From Poseidonibacter antarcticus (GTDB lineage: Bacteria; Campylobacterota; Campylobacteria; Campylobacterales; Arcobacteraceae): DNA of 64,000 nucleotides. The position numbers were made by a program, and so were the translations under genes. This document shows, one piece after another, positions 11,372-40,634 of this stretch; position 1 is the stretch's first letter; every line of letters starts with the position of its first letter. The stretch lies in NCBI RefSeq assembly GCF_003667345.1, contig NZ_RCWF01000009.1, forward strand, positions 1 through 64,000, read 5' to 3'. The notes beneath the pieces are model-generated. The model was not told the origin of the DNA and did not search any database. It saw only the letters and a program-made list of their open reading frames with translations.

Positions 11372-12562
11372 TTAGCCTTTTGTTAATTCATAAGTATCTT
11401 TTGCAATAACTAATTCTTCATTAGTAGGAATTACATAGATTTTTACTTTAGAGTTTTTTGCATTAATTTCTCTACTTTTATCAGATTTAAGTAGATTTTT
11501 TTCTTGATCAATCAAAATACCCATAAATTCTAGTCCAGAACATACTTGTTTTCTAATTAGATCAGCATTTTCTCCAATTCCAGCAGTAAAACAAATTGCA
11601 TCAACTCCTTCTAGTAATCCAGCATAAGAACAAATATATTTTTTAATTCTATTACATAACATTTTTATTGTAACTTGTGCTCTTTGATCATTTTCTAAGG
11701 ATGCTCTTATAACTTCTCTTAAATCTGAACTAATTCCAGAAACTCCTAATATACCTGACTTCTTATTTAAATAATCAATTATTTGATGAGGAGTCATATG
11801 TTTTCTCTCCATTAAATATGGAATTACACCTGCGTCTATATCTCCACATCTAGTACCCATTACTAAACCTTCTAAAGGTGTAAGCCCCATAGATGTAGAA
11901 ATAGATTTACCATCTTTAACAGCACAAACAGATGAACCATTTCCTAGATGACAAACAATAATTCTTGATTTTTCTTTTTTAAGTAATTTAATTGCTTCAT
12001 TCGATACATAATAATGACTAGTTCCATGGAAACCATATTTTCGTAGATGATGTTGAGTATAATCCTCATGTGGTATAGCATATAGATAATTTTCTTCAGG
12101 CATTGTTTGATGAAATGCAGTATCAAATACGGCTACATTAGGAATAGTAGGCATAATTTCTTGACAGATTTTCATACCTAATATATTTGCAGGATTATGT
12201 AAAGGAGCAAGAGGGATAAGGTCTTCAATTTTTTTAATTACATCATCCGTAACAATAACAGATTTATCAAAATATTCTCCACCATGAACAACTCTATGTC
12301 CAATTGCATCAATTTCTTTTATTGAACTAATAACTTTAGTTTCATCATTTGTTAAAATTCTTAAGACTAGTTCTATAGCTTCTTTGTGTGTTGGAATTGG
12401 TAATTCAAAAGTTAATTTTTTATTTTCACCAATTTCGTGTTTTAAAACACCATCAATACCAATTCTTTCTACTAGACCACTAGCTTTTAATTCTCCACTT
12501 TGTGCATTAATTAATTGATATTTTAATGATGATGAACCAGCATTTAATACAAATACTAACAT
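11372..12562 (-). CDS. ackA: Acetate kinase, copy 2
   Basis: A second complete acetate kinase (396 residues) with all catalytic motifs: NAGSSSLKY, HRVVHGGE, DTAFHQTMP, FHGTSHYYV, CHLGNGSSV and FTAGIGENA. It resembles copy 3 more than copy 1, for example in FTAGIGEN and YNYxH-type C-terminal wording. It lies 111 bases after copy 3; that gap contains a 15-base near-palindrome (12633-12647) but no clear terminator, so it may be co-transcribed with the DUF294-exonuclease-ackA genes. Propionate or another short acid as substrate is possible but cannot be read from sequence. Confidence 0.93.
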   Translation of the reverse strand: MLVFVLNAGSSSLKYQLINAQSGELKASGLVERIGIDGVLKHEIGENKKLTFELPIPTHKEAIELVLRILTNDETKVISSIKEIDAIGHRVVHGGEYFDKSVIVTDDVIKKIEDLIPLAPLHNPANILGMKICQEIMPTIPNVAVFDTAFHQTMPEENYLYAIPHEDYTQHHLRKYGFHGTSHYYVSNEAIKLLKKEKSRIIVCHLGNGSSVCAVKDGKSISTSMGLTPLEGLVMGTRCGDIDAGVIPYLMERKHMTPHQIIDYLNKKSGILGVSGISSDLREVIRASLENDQRAQVTIKMLCNRIKKYICSYAGLLEGVDAICFTAGIGENADLIRKQVCSGLEFMGILIDQEKNLLKSDKSREINAKNSKVKIYVIPTNEELVIAKDTYELTKG

Positions 12563-12673
12563 ATAATTTTCCTTTTCTTTTTAAGTACTTAATGCTTTAA
12601 TCTTAAAATTAAATTTATTTTTTATATTAAGCATACTTTATAAGTATAACATATTATCTTAAAACTAAATTTA

Positions 12674-13864
12674 TTATTTTATTAAATTATAAGTATCCTG
12701 AGCAATTACAAATTCTTCATTTGTTGGAATTATAAAAATCTTAGTTTTCGAACTCTTTTTATTTATTTCTCTAGTCAAAGGAAGTAAAAGATTATTCTTT
12801 TCTTTATCTAATTCAATTCCCATAAATTCTAAATTAGCACAAACTTGTTCTCTTATTAAATTAGAATTTTCTCCAATACCAGCTGTAAAACAAATGGCAT
12901 CAGCTCCACCTAATAATCCAGAATAAGCACATAAATATTTTCTAATTCGATTACACATCATATCTATTGTAACTTGCGCTCTTTGATCACCTTCACTAGC
13001 AGCACTTATAATTTCTCTTAAATCAGAACTAATTCCAGAAACTCCCAACATACCTGATTTTTTATTTAGATAATCAATTATTTGATGTGTATCCATTCCT
13101 TTTTTATCCATTAAATATGGAATGACACCAGCATCAATATCTCCACTTCTAGTGCCCATCATTAATCCACCAAGTGGTGTTAATCCCATAGTAGTATTTA
13201 AAGATTTTCCATCTTTCACTGCACAAATAGATGAACCATTTCCTAAGTGACAAACAATAATCTTAGTATTTCTTTTATTACCTAATAATTTAATGGCTTG
13301 TTGAGATACATAATAATGACTAGTACCATGAAATCCATATTTTCTTAAATAATGTTCTGTATAATCTTCATGTGGAACAGGAAATAAAAAATGAACTTCG
13401 GGCATTGTTTGGTGAAATGCTGTATCAAAAACTGCAACATTTGGAGTGTTTGGCATAAGATTTTGACAAATTTGCATACCTAAGATATTTGCAGGATTAT
13501 GTAAGGGTGCAAGAGGAACAAGTTCTTCCATTTTTCTTAATACACTAGGCGTTACAATTACAGATTTATCAAAATATTCTCCACCGTGAGCTACTCTATG
13601 ACCAATTGCTTTAATTTCTTTAATTGAGTCTATTACTTTTGTTTCCGCATGAGTTAATGTGTGTAAAATTAGATTAATAGCTTCTTTATGAGTTGGAATA
13701 GGACATTCAAAAGTTATTTTTTTATTCTCTCCAATTTCATGTTTTAAAATACCATCAATTCCAATTCTTTCAACCAATCCACTAGCTTTTACTTCTGCTG
13801 TTTGTGCATGAATTAATTGATATTTTAATGAAGATGAACCTGCATTTAATACAAATATTAACAT
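12674..13864 (-). CDS. ackA: Acetate kinase, copy 3
   Basis: A third complete acetate kinase of 396 residues, with NAGSSSLKY, HRVAHGGE, DTAFHQTMP, FHGTSHYYV, CHLGNGSSI and FTAGIGENS. Its ATG follows the exonuclease gene by 25 bases, so it belongs to the DUF294-exonuclease operon. Copy 2 comes next. Copies 2 and 3 are evidently a tandem duplication, made before considerable divergence. An acetate-activating role beside an ActP symporter is the natural inference. Confidence 0.93.
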   Translation of the reverse strand: MLIFVLNAGSSSLKYQLIHAQTAEVKASGLVERIGIDGILKHEIGENKKITFECPIPTHKEAINLILHTLTHAETKVIDSIKEIKAIGHRVAHGGEYFDKSVIVTPSVLRKMEELVPLAPLHNPANILGMQICQNLMPNTPNVAVFDTAFHQTMPEVHFLFPVPHEDYTEHYLRKYGFHGTSHYYVSQQAIKLLGNKRNTKIIVCHLGNGSSICAVKDGKSLNTTMGLTPLGGLMMGTRSGDIDAGVIPYLMDKKGMDTHQIIDYLNKKSGMLGVSGISSDLREIISAASEGDQRAQVTIDMMCNRIRKYLCAYSGLLGGADAICFTAGIGENSNLIREQVCANLEFMGIELDKEKNNLLLPLTREINKKSSKTKIFIIPTNEEFVIAQDTYNLIK

Positions 13865-32060: not shown

Positions 32061-32656
32061 TGATAAATGAAAGTAGATTATTAAATGAGGCAAATAGCTT
32101 TTTCTTACAAAAAGATTTTGAAAAAGCTTTATTTTTATATTCTCAATTATCATCAACTTTTAAAGAAAATAAAGAGTACCCAATTTATGCATTATTTTGT
32201 GATATTGCAAGTGAAGATGAAGAAAAAGCAATGTCACTTTATGATTATTTTTCTGTAGTTAAGGAAGAAAATTTAGATAATGCTATTGCTTATGTTGAAG
32301 ATATTATTGATGCATATGATGGTGATATTGACAAAATGATGGAAGTTCTAAAAGAACTGAGTATTTCAACAGTTGATGCATTGGATGCTATTAAATATGA
32401 AGATTTTAAAAAACTTATAAACTCAAGAGGTTCTTTTAGAATCGCTTTTGAGGATATTATGTTTTCTACAAAAGTTGCAATTGAAAATAAAGATGATTTT
32501 TTTGATTTTGTTACTAAATTAATTGATAATGATTTTAATACTACAGCATATTCATATTTAGATGGTTTCAATGAATACTTTGCTTATGATGATGAAATTG
32601 AAAAACTATATAAACGATTAGAAGAGAAAAAAATTGCAATTAACAATCAACAATAA
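32060..32656 (+). CDS. Unknown acidic helical protein, possibly TPR-like
   Basis: A 198-residue soluble protein, rich in Asp, Glu and Lys, predicted mostly helical. The first 35 residues (ANSFFLQKDFEKALFLYSQL) read like one tetratricopeptide hairpin; the rest has no motif I recognise. No signal peptide or membrane segment. It starts by one-base overlap with the Nfu gene and overlaps murE by 23 bases, so it is part of the ileS-murE operon. It resembles conserved hypothetical proteins found before murE in Campylobacterota, but I cannot assign a role. Confidence 0.75.
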   Translation: MINESRLLNEANSFFLQKDFEKALFLYSQLSSTFKENKEYPIYALFCDIASEDEEKAMSLYDYFSVVKEENLDNAIAYVEDIIDAYDGDIDKMMEVLKELSISTVDALDAIKYEDFKKLINSRGSFRIAFEDIMFSTKVAIENKDDFFDFVTKLIDNDFNTTAYSYLDGFNEYFAYDDEIEKLYKRLEEKKIAINNQQ

Positions 32657-33920
32657 AATATTTACAGATAATTCAAATGAAGCAAATGAAAATGTTGCTT
32701 TTGTTCTTTCATCTCATAATGAGAGATTTAAACAAGGTGCAATTGATAATGGATGTAAAGAAATTATCAATTCATCTGATTTAAAAAATTATCTTGATAT
32801 GTCAAGTATTAAGATTATTGGAATTACAGGAACAAATGGTAAAACTACAACAGCAGCTGCTATTTATTCTATTCTTTTAGATTTAGGTTACAAAGTTGCA
32901 CTTCAAGGTACTCGTGGTTTTTATATAAATGATAAAAGAGTTGAAGAGTATTCTTTAACAACTCCAATGCAAATTGGAAACTTTGCACATATACAAAAAG
33001 CTATGGAAAATGATTGTGATTTTTTTGTTATGGAAGTTAGCTCTCATGCAATACAACAAAATAGAATCGAAGGTTTAAGTTTTGAGCTTAAAATTCATAC
33101 TAATATTACAAGAGATCACTTAGATTATCATAAAACAATAGAAGAGTATATCAATATTAAAAATTCATTTTTTTCTGATGAGACTAAAAAACTAATCAAT
33201 AAAGATGATAAAATAGTAAAATACAATGTAAAAAATGGATTTGCATATTCACTTGATGAACCTTCAACTTATAAAGTAGGGGCATATTCTTTTAAAAATG
33301 GAATGCATGTAATGTTTTCTTATTTTGGGGAAATGCATTCTTTCTCATCTTCTATGATGGGTATTTTTAATGTATACAATCTAATGGCAGCTTTAAGTGC
33401 TGTTCATATTACAACTTCTAAACCTTTAGATGAAATCTGTGAAGCACTTGAAAACTTTGCAGGAGTAAGTGGTAGAATGGAAATAATTTCATCTTCACCT
33501 CTTGTGATTGTAGATTTTGCACATACACCAGATGGAATGAAAGAAGTTTTACAAAGCTTTGCACATAAAGACATCATTTGTGTATTTGGAGCAGGTGGAG
33601 ATAGAGATAAAGATAAACGACCTCTAATGGGACAAGTTGCTGCTAATTATGCAAAACATATAATCGTAACTAGTGATAACCCAAGATTTGAAGACCCTGA
33701 TTTGATTATTGAAGATATTTTAAAAGGTATCAAAAACCATCAAAGCGTTCAAGTTGATGTAAATAGAAAATCAGCTATTAGAAAAGCAATTGATATGGCT
33801 GATGAAAATTCAGTTATTTTAATCCTTGGAAAAGGCGATGAAACTACTCAAATAATCTATGATAAAAAACTAGCATTTTCTGATAAAGAAGAAGTTTTGA
33901 AGTATTTGAATAAAGAGTAG
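32634..33920 (+). CDS. murE: UDP-N-acetylmuramoyl-tripeptide synthetase (meso-DAP adding)
   Basis: Adds the third residue of the peptidoglycan stem peptide. The ATP-binding GITGTNGKTTTAA is at about 62-75, HTNITRDHLDYH carries the catalytic centre, and DNPRFEDP near the C-terminus is the DNPR motif that selects meso-diaminopimelate. At 428 residues it is shorter than E. coli MurE because the N-terminal domain is reduced, as usual in Campylobacterota. The TTG start is inside the upstream gene, with a GAAGAG site. Confidence 0.92.
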   Translation: MQLTINNKIFTDNSNEANENVAFVLSSHNERFKQGAIDNGCKEIINSSDLKNYLDMSSIKIIGITGTNGKTTTAAAIYSILLDLGYKVALQGTRGFYINDKRVEEYSLTTPMQIGNFAHIQKAMENDCDFFVMEVSSHAIQQNRIEGLSFELKIHTNITRDHLDYHKTIEEYINIKNSFFSDETKKLINKDDKIVKYNVKNGFAYSLDEPSTYKVGAYSFKNGMHVMFSYFGEMHSFSSSMMGIFNVYNLMAALSAVHITTSKPLDEICEALENFAGVSGRMEIISSSPLVIVDFAHTPDGMKEVLQSFAHKDIICVFGAGGDRDKDKRPLMGQVAANYAKHIIVTSDNPRFEDPDLIIEDILKGIKNHQSVQVDVNRKSAIRKAIDMADENSVILILGKGDETTQIIYDKKLAFSDKEEVLKYLNKE

Positions 33921-34297
33921 AGGCTTTAGCCAGTTTTAAAAACTTTAATTTCAGCTTGAGCAAATACAACTTCAAGTGGTAGAACTTTAGTTTTACCACT
34001 TTTTAAATCATCTATTTTTTTATATACTCATAGTGGTTAAAATGATATTGTATGAGTTGTTGACTTTTTTATATATTAATTAACCCTTTATCTCAGATAA
34101 ATTTCTAGTACATAATTTACCATTAAAACTATGAGTTTGTGTACAATATTATTTAAGATGACTATTGAATTGAAGCTCTAGTTTATAAAACACCTTTATT
34201 ATTATTCTTTCATTTTTATTTATTTGAGGTATAAAAGCTCGAAGTTTTTACTTTTACACTTGTTTCTTCCATGTATTTTGTTAGATATATTAGTATA
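33921..34297. other. 377-base intergenic region at the left edge of the accessory island
   Basis: No intact gene is visible. It contains the murE terminator (33974-34001). On the minus strand there are two short open stretches without starts, one of 33 codons ending at 33926 and one of about 25 codons around 34225-34300. They could be remnants of a decayed gene but are short enough to be chance in A/T-rich DNA. Confidence 0.55.
33974..34001 (+). terminator. Rho-independent terminator of the ileS-murE operon
   Basis: A 12-bp stem with one G-T pair (33974-33985 with 33990-34001), loop TTTA, followed by TTT and an A/T tract, 53 bases after the murE stop. Confidence 0.75.
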
Positions 34298-34816
34298 TTA
34301 TTTCAATAAATCAAAAAGTGTATTTTCTCCTTTTTTGATTTGTGAAACCCTACAATATTCATGTATGCTTTCAAGTAATTTATCTATATCATTGAAATAG
34401 TCTTTTACAAAATCATATCGCTTAACACTACTAAACTTTAGTATTATTTTACAAAATTCACTTGGTTTCATTCTCGATTTCTTCCATTCACTATATTTAT
34501 GTTCATTACAAATAATGAACATCTCAATTTCAGGAGCTGTAATAATATTAATTACAGAAATCTTGTCTACATATGCTTTACTCAAGTTAAAATTTTCTTT
34601 TCTTGAATCCAAGATTCTTAATACAGTTATTTTTTCACTAAAACCTTTTCTTAAATATCTCTTTTCAAATTCTTTAGCAGCTCTACAACGAATTATCTCA
34701 TTTTCTAATAATTGATCATTATTAAATATGAGCTTATTAGAATCTAATAATAATTCCATTATAGCCTGCTCTGCATTACCTTCACAAATACATGCTATAT
34801 AGCCATCTAAATTCAC
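34298..34816 (-). CDS. Small Toprim-like protein, partner of the AAA ATPase
   Basis: A 172-residue protein translated from a GTG start with GGAG seven bases upstream, two bases after the ATPase stop. The pattern fits a reduced Toprim fold: a hydrophobic strand ending in Glu12 (CICEGNAEQ), a second strand ending in Asp70 (VLRILDSRKE, where a full motif would be DxD), then TAPEIEMFIICNEHKYSEW, which recalls the RloB-type segment. No signal or membrane helix. OLD, AbiL, PARIS and Rlo systems pair an ATPase with a Toprim nuclease. I infer a similar role but cannot name the family. Confidence 0.6.
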   Translation of the reverse strand: MNLDGYIACICEGNAEQAIMELLLDSNKLIFNNDQLLENEIIRCRAAKEFEKRYLRKGFSEKITVLRILDSRKENFNLSKAYVDKISVINIITAPEIEMFIICNEHKYSEWKKSRMKPSEFCKIILKFSSVKRYDFVKDYFNDIDKLLESIHEYCRVSQIKKGENTLFDLLK

Positions 34817-34818
34817 GA

Positions 34819-35988
34819 TTATTCTCCATATCTAATTAATGCTTTTTTAAACTCTATAAAAGATTCATATGCTGGTACAGTACCTTGTAGATACCCACTT
34901 TGATACAATTCACTTTTTTTGATGTCATTACGTTTTAATATATTAGAAAGATTTTCAACACTAATTCCACCATTATTTCTTGTGATATAAATATTGTCAT
35001 TTCTCTCAAATTCATCTAATAATTCTGGGTAATGTGTAGATAATAAAATTACAGCACCTTTTCTATTCACCTTATGATTCATAAAAAATCTAACTAGTGT
35101 AACTGCAAGCTCTTTATTAAAATGATTTTCAATCTCATCAATAATTAAATATCCACCTTTAGCCAACACAAACATTGCATTAATAAAGACATTAATTCCT
35201 TTTATTGTTCCAGATGATAAATATTTTTGTAATTCAACTGGTGAGTTCATTAAAATTTCTTCTTTATTTTTAAATTTCAACTTAATTTCAACATCTTTAC
35301 CTTCTTTTATAATATTAGATTTTAAATATTCAATACTTGAATCCAGAAATGTTATTAATTCATGTGGAAATTCTCCGAACATCCTAACTAAATTTATATT
35401 TGTCCAATTAATTAAATCCTCAAAATTAATTTTAATATTGTTCTTTTTATTTAAAGATATGATGATACTAACATCATCAGGTAAGTACTCTTCATCACCT
35501 TTTCTAAGTTGTATTGGTATTAAATCTGTGAAGTTAAATATATTTTTTTTTGTTTTAATACTCTTAATATCTTTTCTCCATAATTGCTCACTTTCAATAA
35601 CAAATTTATCTTCAATTTCATCACTAAATTCACTCTTTATTATTGTTGTCTCTAATTTATATATAGAGTCTGAGAATATACTAAAGTAAATATCAAAAAT
35701 AATTTTGTCTTTTCCTCTTAACCCATTTAATATACTATTGTTTTCTATCTTATTTATTGGTTCATTATTAAGCATTTGAATTATGAAAGAAATCACCTTT
35801 AATGTTGTTGTTTTACCTGATGCATTAATTCCAACAAATGCAATTGCATTATTTTGATAAATTTGTGGGGATATTTTATGCAACATTTCACTTTTATCAT
35901 TCCTAACACGCTGTGTTGTCGTGAAATCAATTTCCAGATTTTTAGGAAATAATTTAAGACCATTTGCTTTTATTTTTAATATTTTCAT
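34819..35988 (-). CDS. AAA/ABC-type ATPase of a candidate defence pair
   Basis: A 389-residue ATPase of the SMC/OLD-like kind. Walker A is FVGINASGKTT (51-61), a signature-like YLSSGTIKG lies at 256-264, Walker B is YLIIDEIENHF (280-290), and the switch histidine is His319 in LLSTHYPELL. The region between 100 and 250 is a charged insertion typical of this class. No DNA-binding domain is seen. AAGGA precedes the ATG at a long spacing. The gene pair sits alone between housekeeping genes, as mobile defence genes often do. Confidence 0.8.
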   Translation of the reverse strand: MKILKIKANGLKLFPKNLEIDFTTTQRVRNDKSEMLHKISPQIYQNNAIAFVGINASGKTTTLKVISFIIQMLNNEPINKIENNSILNGLRGKDKIIFDIYFSIFSDSIYKLETTIIKSEFSDEIEDKFVIESEQLWRKDIKSIKTKKNIFNFTDLIPIQLRKGDEEYLPDDVSIIISLNKKNNIKINFEDLINWTNINLVRMFGEFPHELITFLDSSIEYLKSNIIKEGKDVEIKLKFKNKEEILMNSPVELQKYLSSGTIKGINVFINAMFVLAKGGYLIIDEIENHFNKELAVTLVRFFMNHKVNRKGAVILLSTHYPELLDEFERNDNIYITRNNGGISVENLSNILKRNDIKKSELYQSGYLQGTVPAYESFIEFKKALIRYGE

Positions 35989-36007
35989 AACTTAGAATTT
36001 TCCTTTT

Positions 36008-36084
36008 AAAACGAATAATATGTATTTATATTAAATGTAATGTAGCATATAAGTAAAAAGATTAAGCTTAAAACGTATATTATG
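36008..36084 (-). repeat. Two near-identical 15-bp elements upstream of the ATPase gene
   Basis: AAAACG(A/T)ATA(A/T)TATG occurs at 36008-36022 and 36070-36084 (13 of 15 bases the same, 62 bp apart). The second copy is part of a near-palindrome (36070-36088). The first touches the ribosome site of the ATPase gene. Likely promoter or operator elements of the pair. Confidence 0.45.
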
Positions 36085-36261
36085 TTTTAAAATAATTTTT
36101 GAGAAAACTAGAAATTATTTATAGACTATTATTCTGAACTAGGGAATTTCTTTTCTTTTAATAATGCCTAGTAAAAGAACATTTTTCTACTTGATAAAAA
36201 ACCAAAGTATTTAAAAAATATTTTGCTAAGATATTCACAAAAAAAGGTTTAATCAATAAAT

Positions 36262-36876
36262 ATGTTTTCAAAATTTCTAGAATCTAACACAACATATCCA
36301 ATTGCATTACAAGATTTTCCTACATGGCACAAGGGTATTGAGTATTTTGGTTTTTGGGCAATTGAAGTTTCAACTTTTGAGTGTCAAAATAAAATAAAAA
36401 GTTATCAGAATTATTTATCTTCTTTTTTACATCCTAATTATTTACGTCAAGCTCATATTACTTTGGTTGCTTCTGGTTTATTATCTGATGAGTATTTTTC
36501 TGAAGATTTACTAAAAAGACAAATCAACGAACTAGAAAAAAGTAATATCAAACAATTTTCTTTAAAATTAAAAGATTTTAATAGTTTTTCTACTTGTCCT
36601 TATCTTGCTATTGAGGATTCTTTTTCTAACTTGGATTTTATTCGTAAGGTTTTGAATAATACTTCAAAAGAGATTGATGCAGCTAATTATACGCCACATA
36701 TTACTTTAGGGTTTTATAATAAAGAGTATAAAACATCTGAAATAGTTAAAAATATTTCTGATTTTTCTTTGCCTGATATTGAATTTAGAGTTGATAAAAT
36801 AGTATTTGCTAAATATGAAACTAAAGATATTCAAGGTCCTTATGAAGTTTTACATCGTGTTAAGTTAAGTTGTTAA
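36262..36876 (+). CDS. 2H phosphoesterase / 2'-5' RNA ligase-like protein
   Basis: A 204-residue cytosolic protein with the two catalytic H-x-T motifs of the 2H superfamily, AHITLVAS (His65, Thr67) and PHITLGFY (His146, Thr148), 81 residues apart, as the fold requires. Members open cyclic phosphates or 2'-5' linkages in RNA and nucleotides. The substrate cannot be read from sequence. It is just beyond the ATPase/Toprim island and transcribed away from it; because some 2H enzymes cleave defence signals, a link is possible but not supported by operon structure. Confidence 0.8.
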   Translation: MFSKFLESNTTYPIALQDFPTWHKGIEYFGFWAIEVSTFECQNKIKSYQNYLSSFLHPNYLRQAHITLVASGLLSDEYFSEDLLKRQINELEKSNIKQFSLKLKDFNSFSTCPYLAIEDSFSNLDFIRKVLNNTSKEIDAANYTPHITLGFYNKEYKTSEIVKNISDFSLPDIEFRVDKIVFAKYETKDIQGPYEVLHRVKLSC

Positions 36877-36926: not shown

Positions 36927-38339
36927 TTATAATTCGTGTTCCAAGTCAGATTCTGCTTTTGAAAGTAAAGCAAACTCTTCTTCTGCTGTTTTTGCAACTA
37001 AATGATTTTTACTATAGAAGAAGTAATATAAAGCTCCTAAAATATATAAAATAATTGTATAGTTGAAAGCTCTTGGATCAAAAGCATAAACTCCTGTTAA
37101 TGCAATAATAGAAAGAACTAATGCAATAGATGATGTAAATACACCACCTGGTGTTTTATAAGGTCTTGGCATATCTGGATTTTTAATTCTTAATAAAATA
37201 TGACTTAATGCCATAAGTGCATAAGAAATTGTAGCTCCAACAACAGCCATTCCTAAAATTAAATCACCTTCTTGTGTTAATGAAGCCAAAAATCCTATGA
37301 TACCTGGAATGATTAAAGCCCAAGTTGGAGTTTTTTTCTTACTTGTAAGTGATAAAAATTGTGGTACATAACCAGCTCTTGAAAGTGCAAATACTAATCT
37401 ACTATAACCATAAATAATAGAGAAGAAAGAAGCTACTAATCCTGCTAATGCAAGTACATTTACCATAGTTCCTAATGTTTCATTTCCTGTTGCATTTAAT
37501 GCATCAACTAAAGGAACAGCACTTTTACCAATTGTATCAGCTCCTGCTGCACCTGCTACTAAGAATACAACTAAAACAGCTGTAAATAATAAGAATATCA
37601 TTGCCCCAATAATACCTTTTGGAACATCTTTAGCTGGGTCTTTTGCTTCTTCTGCTGCCAAAGGAACACCTTCAACTGCTAAGAACAACCACATACCAAA
37701 TGGTAATGCAGCCCAAACTCCATACCAACCCATTGGTAAGAATTCACTAGCACCAAAAGCTTCTGTAGAAACTGCTATATCAAATAAGTTTGAAGAATCA
37801 AAATGTCCAAAAAGTGAAACAGCTGTAGCAATAATTGCAAACACAGCTAAGGCACTAATAATCATCATAGTTTTTAAAGCTTCACCCGCACCAATCAAAT
37901 GAATACTAATAAATACAATATAAAAAAGAGCATATATAATAGGTCCATTTATTCCTATGAGTGATTCAACCGCTGAACCTATAAAAATTACAATAGCAGC
38001 TGGTGCTAATGCATATTCGATTAATATGGCAAGTCCTGTTAGAAATCCACCTGCTGGTCCCATTACTTGTCTTGCAAAACTATATCCACCACCTGCTGCT
38101 GGAATTGATGCTGACATTTCTGCTAGTGATAATACTAAACATAAATACATTATTGCCATTAAAGAAGCAGCAATAGCAAATCCTCCCCATCCTGCTTCTG
38201 CAATACCAAAATTCCATCCTGCAAAATCACCTGATATTACATATGAGATTCCAAGCCCTGTTAATAATAACCAACCAGCTGTTCCTTTTTTTAATTGTCT
38301 TTTTTCAAGATATTCTTTACTTATGTGAGCTTTGCTCAT
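36927..38339 (-). CDS. eat: Ethanolamine permease (APC family)
   Basis: A 470-residue amino-acid/polyamine/organocation transporter with about 12 membrane segments. SYVISGDFAGWNFGIAEAG near the N-terminus and the SIPAAGGGYSFARQ loop are characteristic of proton-coupled ethanolamine permeases. AAAGGA precedes the ATG, 11 bases after eutC. Together with eutB and eutC it makes a simple uptake-and-deamination operon. Confidence 0.88.
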   Translation of the reverse strand: MSKAHISKEYLEKRQLKKGTAGWLLLTGLGISYVISGDFAGWNFGIAEAGWGGFAIAASLMAIMYLCLVLSLAEMSASIPAAGGGYSFARQVMGPAGGFLTGLAILIEYALAPAAIVIFIGSAVESLIGINGPIIYALFYIVFISIHLIGAGEALKTMMIISALAVFAIIATAVSLFGHFDSSNLFDIAVSTEAFGASEFLPMGWYGVWAALPFGMWLFLAVEGVPLAAEEAKDPAKDVPKGIIGAMIFLLFTAVLVVFLVAGAAGADTIGKSAVPLVDALNATGNETLGTMVNVLALAGLVASFFSIIYGYSRLVFALSRAGYVPQFLSLTSKKKTPTWALIIPGIIGFLASLTQEGDLILGMAVVGATISYALMALSHILLRIKNPDMPRPYKTPGGVFTSSIALVLSIIALTGVYAFDPRAFNYTIILYILGALYYFFYSKNHLVAKTAEEEFALLSKAESDLEHEL

Positions 38340-38349
38340 TTATAATCCT

Positions 38350-39231
38350 TTATTTTATAAGAAAATTTTCATTATTGATACTACTTTCTAGTGTATCATC
38401 GCTTGTTCTATCTTTTAGATTTACTCCTGATAGTTCTAATCTTCTGGCTTCGTTTAATAAATACATTGTTTTTTTTACTGCCTCCTCATAAGACAATCCA
38501 TCTGAACGAACATTTGATATACAATTTCTATTTGCATCTGTAAGTCCTACTTTTGGATTATATGTAAGATATAAACCAAGACTATCTGGGGAACTTAGTC
38601 CTGGTCTTTCACCAATTAATACTAAAGTCATTCTTGCTTTTAATATTTCTCCTACTTCATCTCCTACGGCTACTCTTCCTTGATGAACAATTGTAATAGG
38701 AGCTAGTTTCCATTGATTTTTATCTTTAGCTAGGGCATGAGATAAGATTTGAATATAATTTACTGCATTTTCTTTTATTGCTAAAGAAGAAAGTCCATCT
38801 ACTATAACAATGGATAAATCATAAGGAACTCTTGTTTGATCAATACTTTTTGATAATAATTTACAAGAATTAGAATCTAATCTTCTACCTAAATCAGGTC
38901 TTTGTAAATAAGTAACTCTATTTACTGCTTGAGAATGTAATAAAATAGGAGAATATCCATCTTGAAAAAGCTCACTTGTATCTGTATTACTTAATAAATT
39001 AACATTTACAGATATTTTATTTAATTGATCAACAACGTGTTCTGTATCTAAGGGTAAATGAACTGCATCTTGTGCTTGCGCATGTGCTAATTGAAAATCC
39101 AATAAGTGATTTGTTGGAATACTAACTCCTGTTCTACCCAGTCCAATTCTAGCTTCTGTATGTTCTCTTAAAAAAGCCCATGGGTTTTGAATAACAGTTG
39201 TTTCTTTATCTTGTTTTATTAAATCAGACAT
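38350..39231 (-). CDS. eutC: Ethanolamine ammonia-lyase small subunit
   Basis: The light chain of the adenosylcobalamin-dependent lyase that turns ethanolamine into acetaldehyde and ammonia. Family segments TEARIGLGRTGVSIPT, DFQLAHAQAQDAVH and IGERPGLSSPDSLG are present. At 293 residues it is normal in length. It begins three bases after eutB. The two subunits are needed together, and cobalamin is required. Confidence 0.93.
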   Translation of the reverse strand: MSDLIKQDKETTVIQNPWAFLREHTEARIGLGRTGVSIPTNHLLDFQLAHAQAQDAVHLPLDTEHVVDQLNKISVNVNLLSNTDTSELFQDGYSPILLHSQAVNRVTYLQRPDLGRRLDSNSCKLLSKSIDQTRVPYDLSIVIVDGLSSLAIKENAVNYIQILSHALAKDKNQWKLAPITIVHQGRVAVGDEVGEILKARMTLVLIGERPGLSSPDSLGLYLTYNPKVGLTDANRNCISNVRSDGLSYEEAVKKTMYLLNEARRLELSGVNLKDRTSDDTLESSINNENFLIK

Positions 39232-39233
39232 AA

Positions 39234-40634
39234 TTAATTTCCTATTACTTTTTGTAAAGAAGCAGAAAAACTTTTTGGAATATCATCATTTAAAATGTAA
39301 TTATTTGCATCTTTAAAAATTTCCATTTTTTCTAACCAAAGTTTAAATTCAGGAGCAGGGTCAAGATTCAATACTCTTCTTGCATATAATGCATCATGAA
39401 AAGATGTTGTTTGATAGTTAAGCATAATATCATCAGACCCTGGAATACCCATAATAAAATTACATCCAGCAACTCCTAAAAGTGTTAATAAATTATCCAT
39501 ATCATTTTGATCTGCATCGGCATGATTTGTATAACAAATATCACAACCCATTGGTAAACCTAAAAGCTTTCCACAAAAATGATCTTCTAATCCAGCTCTT
39601 GTAATCTCTTTTCCATCAAATAAATATTCAGGACCAATAAAACCAACAACAGTATTTACTAATAATGGATCAAACTCTTTTGCAACTGCATAAGCTCTAA
39701 CCTCACAAGTTTGTTGATCTAATCCAAAGTTTGCATTTGCTGATAAAGAACTTCCTTGTCCTGTTTCAAAATACATTACATTATTTCCAACTGATCCACG
39801 ATTTAAAGATAAAGCTGCATCATGTGCTTCTTTTAGAATATTTAAGTTTACACCAAAGCTTGTATTTGTAGCTTCTGTTCCACCAATTGATTGAAAAACT
39901 AAATCAACAGGTGCTTTTTTGTTAATAGCTTCTATAGTATTTGTTACATGAGTTAAAACACACGATTGTGTTGGTATTTCATATTTGTTTATTACATCAT
40001 TCATTAGATTTATTAGTTTGATAGATTGTTCTACATTATCTGTAGCTGGGTTAATTCCAATAACAGCATCACCATTTGCATATAATAATCCATCTAGCAT
40101 ACTAGTTGCAATACCCATCATATCATCAGTAGGATGATTTGGTTGTAACCTTGTAGACAAGTGTCCTTCTAGTCCAATTGTATTATTAAAAGATGTAATA
40201 ACAGGACATTTTTTAGCAACCATTATCAGCTCTTGGTTTCGCATTATTTTACTAACAGCTGCTACCATTTCAGGTGTCATTCCTGGTCTTGCTTTTTTTA
40301 TTAATTCTTTAGAAGTATAATCACTTAGTAACCAGTTTCTAAATTCACCAACATTTAAATCTGAAATTATTTTGAAAGCTTCTTTATCGTGTTTATCAAT
40401 AATTAATCTTGTAATCTCATCGTTTTCATATGGAATTAAAAGATCTTCAAGAAAAGTTTTTAAAGGAACTTCAGAAAGTCTCATTTGTGCAATAGCTCTT
40501 TCTTGGGAAGAATCAGCACAAACACCAGCTAACATATCCCCAGCTCTTTTAGGTGTTGCTTTTGCCATTAAATCCGCTAAATTTTTAAAAAGGTAAGTTC
40601 TATTTCCTTTTTTTATTTTGTAAGAATGTTTCAT
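39234..40634 (-). CDS. eutB: Ethanolamine ammonia-lyase large subunit
   Basis: The catalytic TIM-barrel subunit, 466 residues. Recognisable are the N-terminal LMAKATPKRAGDMLAG, NPATDNVEQS in the substrate pocket, YFETGQGS, and CYTNHADADQNDMDNL. First gene of the eutB-eutC-permease operon. No microcompartment shell genes, EutA-type reactivase, EutR or acetaldehyde dehydrogenase are found nearby, so acetaldehyde must be handled by unlinked enzymes. The promoter carries the 11-bp-period direct repeat. Confidence 0.94.
   Translation of the reverse strand: MKHSYKIKKGNRTYLFKNLADLMAKATPKRAGDMLAGVCADSSQERAIAQMRLSEVPLKTFLEDLLIPYENDEITRLIIDKHDKEAFKIISDLNVGEFRNWLLSDYTSKELIKKARPGMTPEMVAAVSKIMRNQELIMVAKKCPVITSFNNTIGLEGHLSTRLQPNHPTDDMMGIATSMLDGLLYANGDAVIGINPATDNVEQSIKLINLMNDVINKYEIPTQSCVLTHVTNTIEAINKKAPVDLVFQSIGGTEATNTSFGVNLNILKEAHDAALSLNRGSVGNNVMYFETGQGSSLSANANFGLDQQTCEVRAYAVAKEFDPLLVNTVVGFIGPEYLFDGKEITRAGLEDHFCGKLLGLPMGCDICYTNHADADQNDMDNLLTLLGVAGCNFIMGIPGSDDIMLNYQTTSFHDALYARRVLNLDPAPEFKLWLEKMEIFKDANNYILNDDIPKSFSASLQKVIGN

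Follow-up and report, generated by a model that had tools for sequence, protein, structure and literature searches.

Modules that combine an ATPase with a Toprim protein (OLD, Gabija, AbiL, PARIS and retrons) make up a considerable part of bacterial immunity, and few of them have been studied mechanistically. In PARIS, a hexamer of the AriA ATPase keeps the Toprim tRNase AriB in an inactive state, and release follows once a phage protein has acted as the trigger (PMC12409363). In E. coli, TOPRIM_OLD toxins, one of them RloB-like, are neutralised by AAA antitoxins (PMC10440598). The active site of class 2 OLD proteins is described in detail: E400 and D455 are ligands of metal A, D457 acts on it via waters, E508 binds metal B, E404 and T506 participate via waters, and K562 also belongs to the site; the single mutant D457A shows no discernible loss of cleavage (PMC6755086).

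We have analyzed a 64,000-nucleotide stretch of Poseidonibacter antarcticus DNA (contig NZ_RCWF01000009.1, positions 1 to 64,000; here referred to as the window), in which a first-pass annotation had singled out an ATPase gene and a gene for a small Toprim-like protein as a candidate defence pair.

The gene pair and its acquisition

Both genes are on the minus strand, with the ATPase gene first (34819-35988, 389 aa, ATG start) and the partner gene (34298-34816, 172 aa, GTG start) second, at a spacing of 2 bp. The flanking genes, murE (32634-33920) and a 2H-phosphoesterase-like gene (36262-36876), are both on the plus strand; coordinates and flanks thus agree with the earlier description of two genes two bases apart between murE and a 2H phosphoesterase gene. 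The partner's GTG start codon lines up with the ATG of its nearest relatives. For both genes, dN/dS in comparisons with loci L014 and L016 is 0.20-0.25, indicating purifying selection, which, taken together with conservation across phyla, excludes a chance pair of open reading frames.

The pair has been acquired, since in four sister genomes murE is followed directly by the 2H gene, without the pair (gap 0-396 bp). The match between the window and the sister genome G398 ends at 33932 and restarts at 36231, and the corresponding site in G398 holds ca. 350 bp of unrelated AT-rich DNA. The segment so delimited (33933-36230) carries the pair as its only cargo. Neither end of the insert is marked by direct repeats, att-like sites, terminators or a recombinase, and promoter-like sites in the insert region were no more frequent than expected by chance.

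Two other regions of the window were read from their translations. Adjoining the pair, 36927-40634 (minus strand) contains an ethanolamine permease-like gene followed by EutC-like and EutB-like ethanolamine ammonia-lyase genes. At 11372-13864 (minus strand), there is a duplication consisting of two tandem acetate-kinase-like genes, 396 aa each and 76% identical.

The ATPase and its Toprim-like partner

The product of the first gene is an ABC/AAA_21 ATPase of the OLD/AbiLi/RloA-like kind (Pfam AAA_21, E 7e-14). It has the complete set of motifs for binding and hydrolysing ATP. On the minus strand, its Walker A motif (G53-INASGKT-T61, 35806-35832) includes K59 and T60, invariant in alignments A4 and A6; the ABC signature (S258-SGTIK-G264, 35197-35217) has S258, G260, T261 and G264 invariant in 25 sequences; the Walker B motif (L281-IIDEIE-N288, 35125-35148) has invariant D284, E285 and E287; and the H-loop histidine H319 (35032-35034) lies in an STHY segment with T318, H319 and Y320 invariant. 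The best PADLOC model of the protein is AbiLi (E 2e-32), which is matched by 25/25 family members, and homology to ATPases encoded ahead of RloB genes elsewhere in the Campylobacterota extends over 341 aligned columns (hhalign E 1e-25). The OLD/SMC-like motifs noticed at first pass are borne out by the Pfam, PADLOC and homology results alike. In a tree, the ATPases form a clade apart from RloA, DUF4276-neighbouring and OLD ATPases with branch support of 100/100; of these separations we rely on that from RloA alone, the branches of the OLD and DUF4276 rows being long. The AbiLi score of the window ATPase is 110 bits, compared with 163-336 bits for RloB-adjacent ATPases. Judging from sequence, the ATPase is nearest to AbiLi/RloA, yet belongs to a clade of its own.

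The 172-aa partner was matched by no naming model of Pfam, NCBIfam, PADLOC or PHROG and by no PDB sequence, in line with the initial failure to assign the pair to a named system, and PDB sequence searches with the partner and with its profile returned nothing above noise. None of the partner members matched the AriB model, and the HNH models of Pfam and PADLOC did not match the partner. The Pfam entries YgxA-like_sub_bind (E 0.003) and DNA_pol3_a_NII (E 0.04) were rejected, their matches being below curated cut-offs and present in at most 2 of 27 members. With the RloB/AbiLii models (PF13707, PDLC02337), the window partner gave no match at E <=1; one of the 27 members matched at E 0.011 and the others not at all, as against 1e-12 to 1e-30 for matches of RloB proteins to AbiLii. 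When the RloB motifs D-x-D and S-x-P-C-F-E-x-W-x-L-L-H were compared with the partner, the second D and the FExW..LLH residues were absent and only D70, P95 and E98 corresponded.

The residues on which the first-pass annotation relied are correctly placed: E12 in CEGNAE, D70 in ILDSRKEN, TAPEIEMF at 93-100 and DSR instead of DxD. In an alignment of 34 sequences (all positions that follow are on the minus strand), E12, G13 and E16 of motif I (E12-G-N-A-E16, 34769-34783), the counterpart of OLD E400 and E404, are invariant, as are T93, E96, I97 and E98 of motif III (T93-A-P-E96-I-E98, 34523-34540), the apparent counterpart of OLD T506-x-E508. Motif II (D70-S-R72, 34601-34609) corresponds to OLD D455-x-D457 with the second Asp replaced; D70 is present in 32/34 sequences, and the two rows without it have D one residue later. 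K117 of a KPS segment (34466-34468) is found in 33/34 rows. Order and spacing agree with those of OLD for E12 and E16, which are four residues apart as are E400 and E404, and for D70 and E98. We infer that E96 and K117 may be the counterparts of T506 and of the catalytic K562, respectively, the position of T506 being uncertain in the alignment.

Residue 72 is R or K in 29/34 sequences, D in a single row (Bifidobacterium, DSD) and N, P, E or F in the others, so DSR is a family rule and not a peculiarity of the window. E12, E16, D70, E96 and E98 are kept across phyla and at 28-40% identity. The replacement of the second DxD Asp, mostly by Arg or Lys, in nearly all members would suit a Toprim-fold protein that no longer cuts and serves as an adaptor, a nucleotide sensor or a regulator of the ATPase, which would then be the acting component. 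We regard such a role as unlikely: the five acidic residues, invariant across phyla, fit a kept metal site, and the matching OLD Asp is no direct metal ligand, its single mutation being tolerated (PMC6755086), so that the substitution at residue 72 need not mean a dead enzyme.

The AlphaFold2 (AF2) model of the partner, built with 25 family members, has a mean pLDDT of 91.7. In this model, E12 directly follows strand 1 (residues 6-11), D70 follows strand 2, and E96 and E98 lie where the helix that follows strand 3 begins. The top PDB matches in Foldseek were to the OLD C-terminal region and were weak (E 0.047). OLD C-terminal regions aligned to the model with Z 6.5-6.7 and rmsd 4.1-4.5 over 141-143 aa, which is below the tool's safe level; GajA gave Z 5.3-5.5, unrelated Rossmann-like folds gave Z 5-5.8, and the solved structure with the highest Z (8.0) was 2p62, an uncharacterised archaeal protein. 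A BFVD fold search with the partner returned weak matches only, among them an RloB-like protein at rank 9. Comparison of the partner by hhalign with family sets built here gave P 1.3e-4 for OLD_TOPRIM, 0.005 for DUF4276 and 0.006 for RloB (the last value being 0.042 with the first alignment and 0.006 with a wider one), while reversed-sequence controls gave P 0.1-0.55; DUF4435 proteins, at P 0.17, scored no better than these controls.

The claimed likeness to Toprim and RloB proteins therefore stands as far as motif order, remote profiles and a moderate fold resemblance are concerned, and fails at the level of RloB/AbiLii models, which the partner does not match. That the partner is a divergent Toprim-like protein, nearest to OLD, DUF4276 and RloB, is well supported, though not proven, by the predicted structure and the profile comparisons. 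It is probably a Toprim-like metal-dependent enzyme; the AF2 model, the OLD-like fold and the hhalign results point to a nuclease effector as its probable role.

Distribution and mobility of the pair

About 45 homologous partner loci were collected from Campylobacterota, Fusobacteria, Bacillota and Bifidobacterium: 21 came from a scan of a genome collection with a four-sequence alignment, 10 from IMG/VR scans, 3 from PLSDB and more from genome sampling. The hosts include a Sulfurovum MAG (81% partner identity), a Fusobacteriaceae MAG, many Clostridia, Erysipelotrichaceae, lactobacilli and, on plasmids, Bifidobacterium. Nine Campylobacterota matches at E 1e-4 to 1e-6 were judged to be due to chance: L002 and L007 overlie unrelated genes, and the other seven were judged by a common weak pattern and internal stops. 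A search of the phage GenBank records in INPHARED with three family members and with the ATPase was negative.

Wherever there was enough upstream DNA, the ATPase gene was found directly 5′ of the partner gene, with one exception. At this locus (L033, 1032-1376), only partner residues 58-172 remain, without an ATPase and beside a Druantia DruE gene; it reads as a decayed remnant of a pair lost inside a defence island. A reverse search of IMG/VR from the ATPase alone retrieved 14 loci, 12 of them with an adjacent partner; of the two others, L156 is on a contig that breaks off at the ATPase, and L169 has a distant ATPase with a different neighbour, so that the partner is next to 12/12 testable close ATPase relatives. 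The co-occurrence of homologues, which had been set beforehand as a test of the pair, thus holds in both search directions. Pairwise identities of ATPases and partners are correlated (Mantel r 0.915, n = 20 loci, 0/2000 permutations), and at every locus read the two proteins are encoded by separate genes. Partner length across the family is 172-199 aa and RloB proteins recovered here are 178-281 aa long, which leaves the description of the partner as "unusually small" only mildly true.

A more divergent partner branch with the same ATPase neighbour was seen on four IMG/VR contigs (L164-L167; CEGPNE..., GDKQ, CTxPELE). It keeps E12, E16, D, T, P, E and E, has K117 in part of its members and S in some, and may be a second subtype.

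In the ATPase tree, copies from Fusobacteriaceae and Bacillota fall together with those of the window and of Sulfurovum. The pair moves horizontally, also between phyla. The ATPase model most closely resembles Rad50/SMC heads (it also resembles PtuA; Z 16-17), as might befit a host function in DNA repair or RNA processing instead of defence. Such a function is very improbable in view of the transfer between phyla, the empty site in sister genomes and an occurrence that is patchy and sparse: about 1/397 sampled Campylobacterota, 3 full copies (plus one fragment) among 398 genomes of the phylum of L024 and 7/295 genomes of the order of L031.

At L037 (1750-3444), the pair is located directly upstream of the gene for the terminase small subunit, which is followed by terminase large subunit, portal, protease and capsid genes; at L036 it is next to an integrase gene, and at L027 it adjoins a type I restriction system. 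Plasmid copies were found in Ligilactobacillus and, with a type IIG restriction enzyme encoded nearby, in Bifidobacterium. Many copies, that of the window included, stand alone among housekeeping genes, outside defence islands. The expected co-occurrence with defence islands is therefore seen in part: prophage, plasmid, restriction or Druantia neighbours are present in some cases and housekeeping neighbours in many.

Plasmid and prophage copies, and the fact that AAA-TOPRIM pairs act as toxin-antitoxin pairs in E. coli (PMC10440598), would also suit a toxin-antitoxin or addiction module that lacks a phage-specific trigger and serves to stabilise plasmids and prophages, its nuclease toxin being kept silent by the ATPase. 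We find this quite unlikely, because most copies are chromosomal, the ATPase is no short-lived DNA-binding antitoxin, and among studied systems the nearest relatives act in phage defence (PMC12409363, PMC10440598).

Several of the loci merit separate mention. The packaging-module site of L037 is a possible cargo spot for prophage defence genes. In two Lachnospiraceae genera (L024 and L029), the pair appears downstream of the genes for ribosomal proteins L13/S9, a possible shared insertion site; two members each gave matches, and the position was deduced from ORF sizes. The partner on a Ligilactobacillus salivarius megaplasmid (L011, 9986-10528) is annotated as "N-6 DNA methylase", which its sequence does not support and which is probably a misannotation.

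Proposed mechanism and comparison with known systems

On balance, we take the two genes to form a mobile ATPase-effector module that probably defends against phages by an abortive route; a role in defence of whatever kind is likely. The precedents of PARIS and of the AAA antitoxins, together with the anatomy of the pair, lead us to assign the part of sensor and silencer to the ATPase and that of effector to the partner. According to this scheme, the partner would be a metal-dependent nuclease held silent by an ATPase oligomer; the ATPase would sense a phage product and release or activate the partner, which would then cut nucleic acid, either tRNA, as in the case of AriB, or DNA, as in that of OLD/GajA, and the cutting would halt phage growth, probably at a cost to the cell. 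Silencing of the partner by the ATPase seems somewhat more plausible than its absence, and tRNA is a possible substrate, though less likely than not.

A further possibility, which we hold to be rather doubtful, is that the partners are a separate family of Toprim-like effectors in which D-S-R/K has replaced DxD, with a basic residue at the place of the Asp that binds the waters of metal A. Under the control of a dedicated ATPase, such an effector might be an altered nuclease, for instance one that uses a single metal, or a phosphoryl-transfer enzyme of another kind, and the pair an uncatalogued defence system. The loss of the second Asp is expected to be tolerable, because in OLD D457 reaches metal A only via waters and D457A still cleaves; occurring naturally, it offers a ready test of which metal ligands such nucleases need. 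The compact family may also tell whether the substrate, tRNA or DNA, tracks the effector family or the ATPase, and the system is one to seek in Clostridia, lactobacilli, bifidobacteria and Campylobacterota, with their prophages and plasmids.

Among the described systems, AbiL (AbiLi and AbiLii) and RloA-RloB are like the pair in having two genes, the ATPase first and a small Toprim-like protein second, and share with the partner the motif order EGxxE - D - PxxE. They differ in that the window ATPase falls in a separate clade (100/100) with a lower AbiLi score, and the partner is shorter than RloB/AbiLii, lacks the second Asp and matches none of their models. PARIS (AriA and AriB) also consists of an ABC ATPase and a separate Toprim effector, and its sequester-trigger-release cycle provides the likely working model; however, the partner has no AriB or DUF4435 match, and AriA is a poorer match to the ATPase than AbiLi is. 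Class 2 OLD/GajA proteins provide the best remote profile match of the partner and the same order of acidic residues (E400/E404, D455, E508), but there the Toprim domain is a C-terminal fusion, whereas here the Toprim-like protein is a separate polypeptide in which the counterpart of D457 is replaced. The window ATPase model overlaps PtuA of Septu and retrons (Z about 16), from which the pair differs in having neither an HNH protein as the partner nor a reverse transcriptase next to it.

No 2023 PADLOC model covers the partner family. A possible relative, and as such a risk to novelty, is the TOPRIM_OLD toxin of S. agalactiae (node D60, NetFlax, PMC10440598). Since the partner fails the RloB/AbiLii and AriB models and lacks DxD, the pair can be filed neither as AbiL nor as PARIS; the best reading, by analogy, is that of a new ATPase-plus-Toprim-like pair that would work in the manner of AbiL and PARIS.
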